46,118 nt of DNA from Deltaproteobacteria bacterium (GTDB lineage Bacteria > Myxococcota_A > Polyangia > Polyangiales > JADJMO01), in NCBI GenBank assembly GCA_025363655.1, contig JANYDK010000006.1, forward strand, positions 1 through 46,118. Reading direction: 5' to 3'. The position numbers and the translations under genes were made by a program. Of the stretch, positions 7,336 through 40,250 are shown piece by piece. Positions within the stretch are counted from its first letter, which is position 1. Every line of letters begins with the position of its first letter. The notes beneath the pieces were generated by a model. It was not told the DNA's origin. It worked only from the letters and a program-made list of their open reading frames with translations, and searched no databases.

Positions 7336-7387
7336 GAACGAAGCCTACGGTGCGAGGAAACTTGGGGCCAACTGCACGACTAGCCTC

Positions 7388-7421
7388 AGCGGACAAAGTC
7401 GCGCGGCAATCTTTGGCGAAA
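7388..7421 (+). promoter_or_regulatory. 34-bp intergenic element, copy 1
   Basis: This stretch in the divergent gap before the zinc-ribbon gene matches, at 31 of 34 positions, the reverse complement of 39973-40006 upstream of cysE. Its core has CAAAG at 7394 and CTTTG at 7411, giving an imperfect inverted repeat around GC-rich bases, and it ends GGCGAAA. The match between two otherwise unrelated non-coding sites suggests a shared regulator site or leader element. Confidence 0.5.
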
Positions 7422-7423
7422 CC

Positions 7424-7459
7424 AGAAGCTTACGTTCGGTCAGCTCAACATAAGCTTCT
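7424..7459. promoter_or_regulatory. Perfect 9-bp inverted repeat with 18-base spacer
   Basis: AGAAGCTTA (7424-7432) and TAAGCTTCT (7451-7459) are exact reverse complements. They begin 2 bases after the 34-bp element and lie about 50 bases before the zinc-ribbon gene start. The AT-rich arms contrast with the surroundings. An operator or an mRNA stem-loop are both possible; TATGATTTTG after the right arm gives a weak T-rich tail. Confidence 0.5.
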
Positions 7460-7506: not shown

Positions 7507-8271
7507 ATGAGCTCCGCCGCCGTCTGCAGCACCTGTGGAACTCCGCTCCCGCCGGGCAGCGATCGCTGCCCGCGGTGCGGCACCTTGGCAGGCGATCACC
7601 GCCGTTGCTACGGCTGCGGCGCGCGCGCCGAGGTCGTCCAGCGTGACGGCCTCTTCGTCTGCGCCGCTTGCGGGCGTCCGCGGGTGCCGATGGAGGGCGC
7701 GGGTATCGTCCGCAGCGGTCGGGAGCGAGCGCCCCTCGCGCGCATCGCCCAGCTGAAACACGACGCCAACGTCTCGCGCTTCGTCTCCATCGTCGGCTTC
7801 GTAGTCGCCTTCTTCGTGTTGATGCTCGGCGCCGGCTTCGTCTCGTTCCTCCCCATCTTCGGCTACGCCATCATGGCCATCGCCGCGATCATCGTCGGCG
7901 CTGGCCTCGTTGGCCTCGGCCGCTCGAAATCACGGCTGAAAGAGGGGCGCGTCGCCATGGAAGAGGCGATCGCCCTCGTCGCGCACGACGTCATCCGTTC
8001 GCGCGGCAGCATCAGCGCGCAACAGCTCGCCGAGCAGATGGGGCTTCCGTACGACCTCGCCGAGCGGACGCTCGATCGTCTGCCGGCCGATCCGCAGCTT
8101 CGCGTCGAGACGGTCATCGACGAGCAGTCGACCGACGGCAAACTCCGATATCGCATCGCCGATGCCGGCCTCTACGCCGCTGCCGTAGATGAGAACCTCA
8201 GCGAAGAAGAGCAAGAGAAGCGCTCGTTCGACGCGCGCCTCGCCGCCTCGATGAAGGCGAAGAAGCCGTGA
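7507..8271 (+). CDS. Double zinc-ribbon membrane protein with winged-helix-like tail
   Basis: 254 residues. Four CxxC pairs (7/10, 21/24, 34/37, 52/55) make two zinc ribbons. Two membrane helices follow at about 92-114 and 116-134. The cytoplasmic tail has a region at about 155-220 (AHDVIRSRGSISAQQLAEQMGLPYDLAERTLDRL, broken here as seen) that looks like a winged helix-turn-helix, then a charged end. The layout would let a membrane-anchored protein bind nucleic acid or sense metal or redox state; this is inference. Its TGA overlaps the GTG of the DNA methyltransferase (GTGA), so the two are co-translated. The upstream gap contains the 34-bp element and a perfect inverted repeat. Confidence 0.82.
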   Translation: MSSAAVCSTCGTPLPPGSDRCPRCGTLAGDHRRCYGCGARAEVVQRDGLFVCAACGRPRVPMEGAGIVRSGRERAPLARIAQLKHDANVSRFVSIVGFVVAFFVLMLGAGFVSFLPIFGYAIMAIAAIIVGAGLVGLGRSKSRLKEGRVAMEEAIALVAHDVIRSRGSISAQQLAEQMGLPYDLAERTLDRLPADPQLRVETVIDEQSTDGKLRYRIADAGLYAAAVDENLSEEEQEKRSFDARLAASMKAKKP

Positions 8272-9518
8272 GCCGTCCGAACAAGCCCGGCGTCCGTGCC
8301 GCGCTCTCGAATGTCGGTGGTCCGTCGCGTCGCACCGGTGACGACGTCCTCGCTGCCATCCTCGAGGACGCCTTCGACGTCGGCGAAGATGATCACGACG
8401 CGACGCGCGCGCACGTCCACGGCTTCCATTCGTATCCGGCACGCCTCCACGCCGTGACTGCCCAGCGCATCATCGACGCGTGGGGTGGCGCGAAGAAGAC
8501 GCTCCTCGATCCGTTCTGCGGCAGCGGCACCGTGCTCGTCGAAGGGCGTACGCGCGGGATGCGGGTCGTCGGTACCGACGTCAACCCGCTCGCGATCCGT
8601 CTCTCGAAGCTGAAGACGCGTGGCGTGCCGGGGGTCGAACGAGCAGCCATCCTCGAGGCGGCGCAATGGATCGCGCGTCACGTCGAGAACCGAAGGCGCA
8701 CGCAGGCGCGCGTGACGCGACGCTATCCGGAAGAAGACGTGCGTCTCTTTCCGCCGCACGTGCTCCTCGAGCTCGACTCGCTCCGCGATGGTCTCGATCA
8801 GGTCGAACCGCTGGCGTTGCGCGAGGACGTCGAGCTCGTCTTCTCCGCCATCCTCACCAAGGTGTCGCATCGTCGCGGCGACACCGGCGTGTACATGCAA
8901 CAGCGGCGTTTGCCGCCTGGATTCGCCTCGCGCCTCTTCGTGCAGAAGGCCGAGGAGTTGGTGCGCGCGCTCGAGGCCTTCGAGAAAACGGTGCCAGTCG
9001 GCACCTCGCCGTCCGATGTCCACTCCGACGACGCGCGCACGCTCGGCACCCTCTCGGCGGGCATCGTCGACCTCGTGCTGACGTCGCCGCCTTATGCAGC
9101 CACCTACGATTACGTCGACCATCACGACGTTCGACTTCGATGGCTCGGTCTCCGGCTCGATCGTTTCAGCTCGCTCGAGCTCGGCGCGCGTCGTGACTAC
9201 GCACAGCTCGACGGCATCAAGGCGCGTCGCCGTTGGAACGACGAGCTCGGTAGCACGCTCGCGGCCGTCTCCCGCGCCCTCCGAGAAGGCGGCAAGGCGG
9301 TCTTCGTCATCGCAGACAGCGCGGCGGCAGGAATGGCCCTCCGTGCGCTCGACATCGTGCAGTCGCTCTCGGCGGGGGCGAACCTCCGCGTCACTGCGGC
9401 GGCGTCGCAGGAGCGTCCGCATTTTCACGGCGGGACGCGTCACGTGTACCGCGATGCTCCGCGCGAGGAGCACTTGATACTTCTCGAGAAGGCTCCCGCG
9501 AAGCTCGCGTCGGCGTGA
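8268..9518 (+). CDS. DNA methyltransferase (N4-cytosine/N6-adenine type)
   Basis: 416 residues. The SAM-binding motif I is DPFCGSGT (81-88), preceded by FHSYPARLHAVTAQRI, a typical lead-in for this family, and followed by GTDVNPLAIRL. The catalytic motif TSPPYAATYDY begins at 272, with a long insertion between the two, so the order is motif I before motif IV. SPPY motifs are found in enzymes that methylate exocyclic amino groups, mostly DNA N4-cytosine or N6-adenine; RNA or other substrates cannot be excluded. No restriction endonuclease is adjacent, so it looks like an orphan. It starts at GTG 8268 inside the stop of the zinc-ribbon gene. Its last 128 bases overlap the convergent hydrolase gene. 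Confidence 0.85.
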   Translation: MSRPNKPGVRAALSNVGGPSRRTGDDVLAAILEDAFDVGEDDHDATRAHVHGFHSYPARLHAVTAQRIIDAWGGAKKTLLDPFCGSGTVLVEGRTRGMRVVGTDVNPLAIRLSKLKTRGVPGVERAAILEAAQWIARHVENRRRTQARVTRRYPEEDVRLFPPHVLLELDSLRDGLDQVEPLALREDVELVFSAILTKVSHRRGDTGVYMQQRRLPPGFASRLFVQKAEELVRALEAFEKTVPVGTSPSDVHSDDARTLGTLSAGIVDLVLTSPPYAATYDYVDHHDVRLRWLGLRLDRFSSLELGARRDYAQLDGIKARRRWNDELGSTLAAVSRALREGGKAVFVIADSAAAGMALRALDIVQSLSAGANLRVTAAASQERPHFHGGTRHVYRDAPREEHLILLEKAPAKLASA

Positions 9519-11391: not shown

Positions 11392-12645
11392 CTACAAGAG
11401 TATCCGCGTCGGGTGCTCGACGATGTGGCGGAGCTCGCGGAGGAAGGTGGCGCCGATGGCACCGTCGACGACGCGATGATCGCAGCTGAGCGTGCAGGCG
11501 AGCCGATGACCGACGACGATGGCGTCGCCCTTCACGACCGGCTCCTTGCGCACCTGACCGACCGCGAGGATGGCGCCTTCGGGCGGGTTGATGACCGCGG
11601 CGAACTCGTCGATGCCGAACATGCCGAGGTTGGAGATGGAGAAGGTGCCGTTCTGCATCTCCTCCGGCTTCAACTTCTTCGCCTTCGCGCGCGCCGCCAA
11701 GTCGCGCACTTCGGCGCTGATTTCGCGCACCGATTTGCGATCGGCATCACGTAGGACCGGCGTCACCAGCCCGTCGTCGATGGCCACGGCGACCGAGATG
11801 TCGACGCGATTGTGGATGAGGATCGCCTCCGGCGAGAACTGCGCATTGCACGCCGGCACGAGGCGAAGCCCGATCGCGCAGGCCTTGATGAGCAGGTCGT
11901 TGAGGCTGATTTTTTCGGCCTTCTCGCCCTTGCCCGCGAGCGCGGCGAGATCGCCGTTGATCTGCTCGCGAAGCGCAACCAAGGCATCGGCGTCGAGATC
12001 GACCGTGAGATAGAAGTGCGGCACCGTCTGCTTCGACTCGGTGAGCCGACGCGCGATCGTCTTGCGCATCATCGAGAGTGGGCGTGGATCCGGCGCAGCG
12101 AGCTCACCAGGGGGGAGGGGCGCGGGGCGTGCGGCGGGGCGTGCGGCGACGGGCGTCGATGCGGCGGAGGCGAGATCGCGCTGGATGATGCGCCCGTGCG
12201 GGCCGCTGCCTTGGACAGCGTGGAGATCGAGGCCCGTTTCACGAGCGAGGCGGCGGACGAGAGGAGATGCCTTGACGCGACCGTCGGGGGAGGGCGCAGC
12301 CGCGGGTGCAGGCGCTGCTGCGGGTGCAGGCGCAGCCGCGGGTGCAGGTGCAGGTGCAGGCGCAGGCGCAGGCGCGTGCCCTGCCAACAACCCCGACACA
12401 TCCTCCCCCGGCTGACCAATGATCGCCACCGGTTGCCCGAGCACCACCATCGACCCTGGCGTCACCAGCAGCTTCAGCAGCGTGCCCTTGTCGAAGGAGC
12501 GGAACTCCATCGTCGCCTTGTCGGTTTCGACTTCGGCGAGGAGGTCGTCGATGCCGATCGTGTCGCCCTCCTTCTTGTGCCAGGTCGCGAGGCGGCCCTC
12601 CTCCATCGTCGGAGAGAGCTTCGGCATGTCGAGGATTTTGGCCAT
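11392..12645 (-). CDS. pdhC: Pyruvate dehydrogenase complex E2, dihydrolipoamide acetyltransferase
   Basis: 417 residues. One lipoyl domain (1-80) has the lipoylated Lys43 in ETDKATMEF. An Ala-Pro linker (90-120) leads to the peripheral-subunit-binding domain (about 123-158, KASPLVRRLARETGLDL), a second Pro/Ala linker, and the catalytic domain, which ends with the active-site motif CDHRVVDGAIGATFL. It transfers acetyl from lipoamide to CoA. Third gene after pdhA and pdhB on the same strand; the E3 subunit is not in the window. The linker is written in short GCGCCGGC-type repeats on the DNA. The gap to pdhB holds three tandem 10-mers. Confidence 0.95.
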   Translation of the reverse strand: MAKILDMPKLSPTMEEGRLATWHKKEGDTIGIDDLLAEVETDKATMEFRSFDKGTLLKLLVTPGSMVVLGQPVAIIGQPGEDVSGLLAGHAPAPAPAPAPAPAAAPAPAAAPAPAAAPSPDGRVKASPLVRRLARETGLDLHAVQGSGPHGRIIQRDLASAASTPVAARPAARPAPLPPGELAAPDPRPLSMMRKTIARRLTESKQTVPHFYLTVDLDADALVALREQINGDLAALAGKGEKAEKISLNDLLIKACAIGLRLVPACNAQFSPEAILIHNRVDISVAVAIDDGLVTPVLRDADRKSVREISAEVRDLAARAKAKKLKPEEMQNGTFSISNLGMFGIDEFAAVINPPEGAILAVGQVRKEPVVKGDAIVVGHRLACTLSCDHRVVDGAIGATFLRELRHIVEHPTRILL

Positions 12646-38278: not shown

Positions 38279-39190
38279 CTAGCTCGGGAGGTCTTTGACC
38301 CCGAGCGCCTCGAAGACTTCGCCGAGCCTCGTTCGCGGAACCGAGACGCGCGTCGGCATGCCGCCCGAGAGACCGAAGAGCTTGAGGAAATCGATACCGC
38401 TGTCGAAGGCGGCAGCGATGGCGACGCTGTCCCGATCGACGACGATGGAGATCTTCTCGCGCTCTTGGCCGACGAGGAGGAGCAGCGTCTTGTCGTACGA
38501 CTTGCGTGACGCCGGGAGCTCGACGTAGGCGACGCCGTGCGGTTCGCCGCGGAGACGCTGAAAGCCACGCGAGAGGACGCGGGCTTCATGTTCTTGCGCG
38601 GCGTACTCGGCCGCAGCGGCGTCGATCGGTTGCCAGAGCCCACCGTCGGCGAGCCCGGTGGTGAGGTGACGGACGATGAGACCGAAGAGACCTTCGTCGT
38701 GCGGCCGTCCTCGAATCGCCCGGTCGAAGCGATCGCCGATGGCGCTGGGGGTGCCGATGCGCGTGTCGATGGCGCGCGCGTCGTCGTCGGCGCCGGCGTA
38801 GGGCTCGGTGCCGCCCCGCATCCATTTGGCGGCGGCGCAGAGGCCGTCGAAGTCGGTGTGGCAGACGATGGTGTCGACGGGGCCGATGCGCGTGACGAGC
38901 GCGGGATCGATCATCTCGGGACACGCGCCGTGCTGCGCCTTGGTGCAGAGGACGAAGCGCGGATCGTTCGCGAAGTCGGCGTGGCGCTCGTGATCGTGGT
39001 GATCGACCCAGGCAGCGAGGCGCGGGCCGAGGCCGTCGATCAAGCGGCGCGTCACTTTGTCGAAGCGCCCGGGCTCGGTGAGCGTGTCGTAGGCGAAGGC
39101 GATGTCGAGCACCACCACGCGCCCGGCGAGGGTCTTGGTGCTGGGGAGCTTTCGAGGTGAACCGAAGGCGAGCGTGATCATCGCGGCCAT
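38279..39190 (-). CDS. DHH-family phosphoesterase-like protein
   Basis: 303 residues. Metal-ligand motifs of the DHH superfamily are present: VDHHDHE (62-68) and VCHTDFDGLCAA (109-120). A further Asp (VLDIAFAYD) lies near the N-terminus. The C-terminal part carries a DHHA1-like Gly-rich segment (IDFLKLFGLSGGMPTRVS). Members cleave oligonucleotides or cyclic dinucleotides, or phosphate esters; the substrate cannot be told here. Its ATG overlaps the TGA of cysE by one base (TGATG), so the two are coupled. Confidence 0.85.
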   Translation of the reverse strand: MAAMITLAFGSPRKLPSTKTLAGRVVVLDIAFAYDTLTEPGRFDKVTRRLIDGLGPRLAAWVDHHDHERHADFANDPRFVLCTKAQHGACPEMIDPALVTRIGPVDTIVCHTDFDGLCAAAKWMRGGTEPYAGADDDARAIDTRIGTPSAIGDRFDRAIRGRPHDEGLFGLIVRHLTTGLADGGLWQPIDAAAAEYAAQEHEARVLSRGFQRLRGEPHGVAYVELPASRKSYDKTLLLLVGQEREKISIVVDRDSVAIAAAFDSGIDFLKLFGLSGGMPTRVSVPRTRLGEVFEALGVKDLPS

Positions 39191-39954
39191 CAGCCGCCAG
39201 CCGCCGACGGGAGCGACGGGATGGCTTCGCCGAGATCGCGCTCGGGGTCGTCTTCTTCGTGAACGGGCAGATCGAGCGTGGCTTCGATTTTCGCGAGGCG
39301 GCTGCGCAGCCGCTCGTTCTCGATCGCGAGGCCGCGGATGAGGTCGCTGATCGGGTCGGGCAAGCTCGAGTGATCGAGCTGTGCTTCGAGCCGATTGTCG
39401 GCGGCGACGAAGCGGCCGGGGACGCCGACGACGGTGGCGCCCGGTGGCACCGGCTTCACCACCACCGAGCCGGAGCCGATGCGCGCCCCCTCGCCGATGA
39501 CGATGTGACCGAGGATGCAAGCATTGCTGCCGACGACGACGTTCTTGCCCAGCTGCGGATGACGGAGCACGCGCTCACGTGAGGTGCCGCCGAGGACGAC
39601 GCCTTTGTAGAGCAAGCATCCGTCGCCGACCGTGGCGGTCTCGCCGATGACCACGCCCATGCCGTGGTCGATGAAGACCCCGTGGCCGACGTTGGCGCCG
39701 GGGTGAATCTCGACGCCCGTCGTGGCGCGCGCGGCGTGAGAGAGGAGACGTCCAGCGAGCGGATGGCCATTCGTCCACAGGTCGTGGGCCAAGCGATGCG
39801 CCCAAATCGCGTGTACGCCGGGGTAGGCAAGGAGCGCCTCGATGCGCGAGCGACACGCCGGGTCGTTGCGGACGACGGCGTCGACGTCTTCACGAATGCC
39901 CCGGATCGCCATGGGGATTTTCGCGATCCATCGGAAGGGTGTGGGGAGGGGCAT
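39190..39954 (-). CDS. cysE: Serine O-acetyltransferase
   Basis: 254 residues. A helical N-terminal part (AIRGIREDVDAVVRNDPACR, AIWAHRLAHDLW) leads to left-handed beta-helix hexapeptide repeats with the catalytic His in GVFIDHGMGVVIGETA and the loop LLYKGVVLGGTS. It acetylates serine with acetyl-CoA, the first step in cysteine synthesis. The C-terminus has a helical extension with an acidic tail (HEEDDPERD) not seen in short CysE forms. A second in-frame ATG lies at 39912. The 34-bp element lies 19-52 bases before the start. Confidence 0.92.
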   Translation of the reverse strand: MPLPTPFRWIAKIPMAIRGIREDVDAVVRNDPACRSRIEALLAYPGVHAIWAHRLAHDLWTNGHPLAGRLLSHAARATTGVEIHPGANVGHGVFIDHGMGVVIGETATVGDGCLLYKGVVLGGTSRERVLRHPQLGKNVVVGSNACILGHIVIGEGARIGSGSVVVKPVPPGATVVGVPGRFVAADNRLEAQLDHSSLPDPISDLIRGLAIENERLRSRLAKIEATLDLPVHEEDDPERDLGEAIPSLPSAAGG

Positions 39955-39972
39955 CGGCGGTTCTCGTACTCA

Positions 39973-40006
39973 TTTCGCCAAAGATTGCTGCGCAACTTTG
40001 GCCGCT
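39973..40006 (-). promoter_or_regulatory. 34-bp intergenic element, copy 2 (cysE leader)
   Basis: The minus strand of this stretch matches 7388-7421 at 31 of 34 positions. On the plus strand it reads as an imperfect palindrome, CCAAAG-A-TTGC-TGC-GCAA-C-TTTGG. It lies directly before cysE in the 296-base gap to the divergent kinase gene. In the rest of that gap I see a short GAGAG/CTCTC stem at about 40187-40200 and a weak GG-N10-GA sigma-54-like match near 40219, but nothing convincing. Confidence 0.5.
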
Positions 40007-40250
40007 TCGGTCGATCTCGCGTCGCTCGGTCGCCGAGACTACCGGTCGTCGGCGATAGTCGGATGTGTGTGCGGCGGCGAACGTTTCTCGCTCCACCCTT
40101 TCGAGGGCGCGGCGGTGCACCTCGATGTGTCGAGAATTGCGCAAGGATCGCACGGCTGCGCGCTTCGGCCAAAGGAGACATGTGGGAGAGGGTTCTCTCA
40201 TGACCTGAATCGTGACCTGGCTCTTGATTTGAACTAGGCTTCCGAGTGGA

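Follow-up and report, generated by a model that had tools for sequence, protein, structure and literature searches.

Does a 34-nt sequence that stands before two unlike gene groups mark a common regulon, or does it belong to a dispersed family of small repeats? The question is raised by positions 7388-7421 and 39973-40006 of the window, which is the whole analysed stretch of 46,118 nt and corresponds to C30 among the contigs of a draft genome of 9.04 Mb. An initial annotation had offered both readings. Of these, the repeat family was found, with at least 150 copies, whereas a common sulfur, redox or metal regulon fits neither the unrelated neighbour genes nor the lack of pre-gene enrichment. 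The two sequences are probably old copies of a non-autonomous, REP/CIR-like mobile palindromic element of about 75 bp that inserts with a bias for stop codons and has multiplied in this lineage.

The pair in the window

The pair is real and inverted. 31 of the 34 bases are equal and 3 differ (91% complementary in the repeat search); the minus strand of 7388-7421 reads TTTCGCCAAAGATTGCCGCGCGACTTTGTCCGCT and 39973-40006 reads TTTCGCCAAAGATTGCTGCGCAACTTTGGCCGCT. The similarity was rightly taken to exceed chance, as the 23-nt core pattern occurs at these two places alone in the window and is matched in 0 of 100 dinucleotide shuffles. The CAAAG/CTTTG inverted repeat ascribed to both copies exists at 39977-40002, where it forms the lower stem of a hairpin, whereas at 7392-7417 the stem is mismatched. 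The 34 nt are moreover only a part of the element, namely hairpin 1 with its flanks, and beside cysE the complete unit extends over approximately 39966-40041. Domain matches bear out the neighbours named before, a cysE-like gene beside one copy and a zinc-ribbon/DNA methylase pair beside the other. The features are as follows.

39966-40041, plus strand: full two-hairpin element, copy 2 (covariance-model score 90.3 bits, E 1.2e-15, covering model positions 1-76; one of the 39 aligned copies)
39977-40002, plus strand: hairpin 1 of copy 2, intact, GCCAAAG-A-TTGC-TGC-GCAA-CTTTGGC (DNA fold, alignment)
40004-40039, plus strand: hairpin 2 of copy 2, intermediate A/B sequence, TCGATC...GGTCGCC (DNA fold, alignment)
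7388-7421, minus strand: hairpin-1 part of copy 1, with stem mismatches (sequence, repeat search)
7422-7431, minus strand: left-end remnant of copy 1, AAGCTTCTGG, where the family has AAGCTTCTCG (sequence against family left ends)
7350-7387, minus strand: expected place of hairpin 2 of copy 1, unrecognisable (not among the 150 model matches listed; fold)
39190-39954, minus strand: cysE-like gene (SATase_N and hexapeptide domains)
7507-8271, plus strand: zinc-ribbon gene (weak zinc ribbon match)
8268-9518, plus strand: DNA methylase gene (N6_N4_Mtase domain)

Copy 2 is a complete but aged element, with the start of cysE 12 nt away. Its hairpin 1 is perfect with one bulged base, and the stem foot of its hairpin 2 is mutated, exhibiting GAGAC in place of GAAGC. 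Copy 1 is a remnant of the left end and the mismatched hairpin 1, with hairpin 2 decayed or lost; folding of 7350-7430 gives no stable hairpin (z = -0.02). Both spacers are divergent, that of copy 2 lying between the cysE-like and protein-kinase genes and that of copy 1 between a TPR-protein gene and the zinc-ribbon/DNA methylase pair. This pre-gene position is a minority case for the family, which two copies are too few to reveal. Copy 2 may possibly have an incidental influence on the expression of cysE or the kinase gene. Elsewhere in the window, at 12274-12385, a short tandem repeat of GGCGCAGCCGCGGGTGCA units lies within a coding region.

Architecture and fold of the element

An alignment of 39 copies defines a unit of about 75 bp, in which a variable left end, commonly CTTCTCG, is followed by TTTC, hairpin 1, one C and hairpin 2. 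The consensus is GCCAAAG-A-TTGC-TTC-GCAA-CTTTGGC for hairpin 1 and GCTTCGG-T-CAAT-CTCGCTCCGCTC-GGTTG-CCGAAGC for hairpin 2, each with a 7-bp lower stem and a single bulged base on the 5' side. Exactly these two hairpins are obtained on folding the consensus as DNA (-18.2 kcal/mol, z -3.6), and the same two on folding either strand as RNA (-29.7 to -31.2 kcal/mol). A conserved ORF was not seen in the element. Assignment to a known RNA family was rejected, as Rfam gave 0 matches at gathering score in the window.

Paired changes occur at four base pairs of hairpin 2 (among them GC to CG and AU to GC), and none of 500 shuffles attains its covariation score; the stem-preserving double changes (4 pairs, 12 cells) are matched by at most 1 of 500. 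Hairpin 1 is nearly invariant among the 39 copies, partly because the copies were chosen via hairpin 1. Within subfamilies, 15 double changes are paired and 1 is broken. Private changes per site amount to 0.62 in stems versus 0.38 in loops for subfamily A and to 0.31 versus 0.38 for subfamily B, both from small counts. Since private stem changes are not clearly rarer than loop changes, the fold seems to be preserved in the spreading lineage and not copy by copy, and these small counts give no sign of selection on the fold of each single copy.

Copy number, subfamilies and arrays

At least 150 copies at 139 sites were found with the covariance model in the 9.0-Mb genome. With up to 3 mismatches the 34-mer occurs 96 times (reversed control 0), and an 18-mer gives 154 matches versus 0 for its reversed control. 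The two main subfamilies have hairpin 1 in common; compensatory changes set their second hairpins apart, with GCTTCGG/CCGAAGC in A and GTCCGG/CCGGAC in B. A third hairpin-2 type (GCTCGCTGGATCTCGCC...) is seen in further copies, and some copies consist of hairpin 1 alone. Ten A copies (67-bp interior) and two B copies (65 bp) at unlinked loci are identical to their subfamily consensus. Tandem arrays with units of 72-74 bp occur at 13 sites; several of them lie at contig ends, so the true copy number is higher. The ends of contigs C48 and C61, and those of C35 and C70, have matching array variants and probably join. One copy (G000:C87:7055-7169) contains approximately 40 extra bases in hairpin 1, possibly another small insertion.

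Occurrence in other genomes

The 33-mer is present in 0 of 56 relatives, and the 18-mer gives 0-4 matches each in 183 other genomes of the order. An exact hairpin-1 pattern was found neither in the 84,980 species genomes of GTDB r220 nor in viral contigs, and plasmids gave no match; the records of the source genome were possibly left out of these collections. The element is also absent from the orthologous positions in same-family genomes, a comparison proposed with the initial annotation, which speaks against a common regulon.

About ten diverged relatives of the element were detected in two genomes of one sister genus, and none beyond these among the 183 genomes of the order. In their hairpin 1 the upper part, A-TTGC-TTC-GCAA, is conserved, and both sides of the lower stem have changed together, to GCGAGAG/CTCTCGC or GCCGAAG/CTTCGGC; the copies lie inside larger mosaic units, and their partner hairpins differ. 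Each of the six sister-genus copies tested has CCCCTCA at its end; read in antisense, the TCA supplies the TGA stop of an open frame that is 93 to 500 or more codons long. At the sister-genus loci L219, L221-L225 and L067 the mosaic repeats combine a CTCAGGG...CCCCCTGCCGGGGGACTTGGCTCCGGCCC unit with the diverged hairpin 1, and several mosaic repeats carry (C)CTCA(G) at both ends.

Placement relative to genes and stop codons

Genes were predicted by a codon-usage gene finder in 2.2 Mb chosen around the matches, and all gene-context numbers rest on that prediction. The 139 sites comprise 8 genic, 74 co-directional, 25 divergent and 22 convergent ones as well as 10 at contig ends. About 94% are extragenic, although genes fill 87-89% of the sequence. 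Random, also intragenic, matches had been named as the sign of a neutral repeat; with ~6% genic sites versus 87% expected at random positions the placement is not random, but the bias concerns gene ends and not promoters. The suggested enrichment upstream of genes is contradicted, as divergent spacers are depleted (21% of classified sites versus 40% of intergenic sequence). Convergent spacers are enriched (18% versus 7%).

The strongest regularity concerns stop codons. At 46 of 64 eligible sites, that is, those with an opposing gene ending on the hairpin-2 side, the hairpin-2 (3') end lies no more than 5 nt from the stop codon of this gene. Random placement of each element within its own spacer gave a mean of 16.0 and a maximum of 25 such sites in 5000 trials. 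At 17 sites the stop consists of TA and the G with which the reversed element begins, and at most other stop-adjacent sites a TGA is found 0-6 nt away. A TRA trinucleotide as a simple target motif appears less likely, a TA adjoining hairpin 2 being rare at sites away from stops. GTAG at the boundary between this TA and G was counted by eye at 9 of the 17 sites, which is about the expectation from third-position G content, and no preference is claimed. For the other (5') end, proximity to stops is marginal (17 versus 12.9 expected, P 0.058), with stops on this side at a median distance of 14 nt. The 3' end was found beside a start codon in 0 cases versus 3.6 expected. In six convergent pairs the element or an array occupies nearly the whole gap between the two stops. 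Of the youngest A copies (0-1 changes), 15 have an opposing gene on the hairpin-2 side, and 12 of these lie next to its stop; the youngest copies are thus adjacent to stops no less often than older ones, and the age trend is weak.

The neighbour genes are unrelated and include those for DnaE, ClpB, ParB, SHMT and UvrC. To these adjacent stops corresponds the natural end of the gene: in a family-level search with eight queries (DnaE, ClpB, UvrC, ammonium transporter, SHMT, thiolase, 3-hydroxyacyl-CoA dehydrogenase and a 4Fe-4S protein), orthologues with 54-89% identity have the same end point or end within a few residues of it, without the element. One UvrC orthologue, as an exception, extends 17 residues further. 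A truncation artefact, in which the element makes false stops within genes, was therefore rejected. Two further kinds of repeat were seen past stops in relatives. At the 3-hydroxyacyl-CoA dehydrogenase gene of one relative (L192) another hairpin, CAGGCCGTTGAGAAACGGCCTG, begins right after the TAG stop and may be one more stop-adjacent repeat, and a heptamer microsatellite (GTCGTCA)n lies directly or shortly past the stops of two genes in a same-family genome (L197, L193).

Explanations for the pattern

Identical copies at unlinked loci, tandem arrays, absence from relatives and structure-preserving paired changes together point towards a small mobile element, and it is from this pattern that we infer mobility. 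To spread, the unit would be mobilised in the form of a DNA hairpin by an enzyme acting in trans, with insertion biased to the sequence just past a stop codon and hairpin 2 facing the stop. Landing there would harm neither the protein nor the promoter that comes next. The copies in the divergent spacers of the window would then be decayed leftovers with no common regulatory role. Since the youngest copies show no lower rate of stop adjacency than older ones, biased insertion is favoured over later deletion as the cause of this adjacency; in part it could also stem from selection for a function past stop codons. The family clearly illustrates how a small bacterial repeat can be fixed to within a few nucleotides of stop codons and recur in a related genus.

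Insertion might even be aimed at stop codons as such (TAG, TGA or TAA), with hairpin 2 placed 0-6 nt past the stop in antisense and the bias kept in the sister genus despite the changed sequence. We put this forward tentatively, as a possibility that is rather doubtful. Targeting would then be coupled to the termination of translation or transcription and not to a DNA motif, and the substrate could be, for instance, DNA that is single-stranded or in an R-loop in the wake of the last ribosome.

A role in RNA 3' of genes, as a bidirectional terminator, 3'-end stabiliser or modulator of translation termination, with selection holding copies past stops, would agree with the 46 of 64 stop-adjacent sites, the six nearly filled convergent gaps, the enrichment in convergent spacers and the strong fold of the RNA read in the direction of the gene (-29.7 kcal/mol, z -4.5). 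We nevertheless consider it unlikely. Private mutations do not clearly spare the stems, the other end is hardly enriched towards stops, and most copies do not lie beside a stop on the hairpin-2 side. No U-tract occurs in the element on either side, and an intrinsic terminator as its primary identity was rejected for this reason.

Bacterial genomes are subject to a deletion bias. Elements inserted anywhere in spacers might thus have been left against stops by later loss of non-coding DNA, and the stops on the 5' side are fairly close as well. The frequent adjacency of the youngest copies and the one-sidedness of the effect, which concerns the 3' end only, render this improbable. A transcription-factor operator common to cysE and the zinc-ribbon/methyltransferase genes is suggested by the divergent leaders of both window copies, each with a dyad, but it was rejected as very improbable on copy number, placement and neighbours: most copies occur where genes end or in co-directional spacers, divergent spacers are depleted, the copy at 7388 lacks its palindrome, and the orthologous loci of other copies lack the element. 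A chance-defying match between two promoters can therefore reflect a repeat family and not a regulon.

Comparison with known repeat systems

The mobile element proposed here behaves like REP or CIR elements but is assigned to neither, since the REP tag, a RAYT with the same repeat and the CIR methylation site are absent. REP elements are GTAG- and CGTC-tagged palindromes which, like REPINs, are associated with RAYT transposases (PMC3733652; REPINs, PMC3116915). The likeness lies in high-copy, extragenic, short and bulged palindromes that prefer co-directional and convergent spacers, are lineage-specific and preserve their structure by paired changes; the element is a short imperfect palindrome with covarying hairpins, at least 150 copies and 8 of 139 sites genic. 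It differs in its two unlike hairpins, set in fixed direct order one base apart within an interior of about 67 bp, in the absence of a GTAG or CGTC tag outside the hairpins, and in the 3' end set against stop codons. A RAYT-mobilised REP proper was rejected because of the missing tag and because the lone Y1 transposase gene of the genome is flanked by other repeats.

CIR elements of Caulobacter and relatives are described as intergenic units of about 110 bp with two hairpin arms and a mobility mechanism that is unknown (PMC2229807). Two hairpin arms and an intergenic position, not inside genes, are likewise found here. A linker connects the two arms of a CIR, which also contains GANTC (CcrM) sites; our consensus lacks both, and a stop-codon placement is not known to be reported for CIRs (PMC2229807).

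Tandem repetition is, as in the present element, a feature of the MIRUs. These small mobile repeats of mycobacteria sit at a gene boundary, where the neighbour gene survives, and have a small ORF coupled to the start codon (PMC12548453). The boundary placement that spares the neighbour is shared, but the element described here lies past stops, mostly in antisense and without such an ORF. If its insertion is aimed at gene ends, it would represent a new 'safe landing' strategy beside that of MIRUs at start codons.

Miniature elements derived from IS200/IS605 carry subterminal hairpins around a body and show no clear target duplication. Hairpins near both ends and the lack of a clear duplication are common to our element, whereas its hairpins are adjacent, and no parent element was noticed incidentally in the ~2.2 Mb sampled.

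Element flanks and the transposase gene of the genome

As to the marks of a MITE, a weak AGCTTC inverted repeat is present at the ends of many A copies, and a consistent target-site duplication was not found; the best signal, picked among many offsets, was 8 of 86 four-base matches versus 1.6 expected. The left flank reads TTCTCGTTTC, and the right flank has no fixed tetranucleotide. No transposase linked to the element was found in the genome, whose lone Y1_Tnp gene (C70:53415) bears a different flanking inverted repeat (GGGACCGCGGGCTAGAAGCCC...) that was not seen at high copy. At this locus (L061, G000:C70:51915-55250) the IS200/RAYT-like Y1_Tnp gene occupies locus positions 1501-1836 and is surrounded by inverted repeats of about 63 bp, GGGACCGCGGGCTAGAAGCCCACGGCATCGAGATCTTCAAGACCCGGCTTCGCC. 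The locus represents a TIRtron-like unit unrelated to the element reported here, and it resembles a known kind of TIR-flanked tyrosine transposases (PMC3733652).
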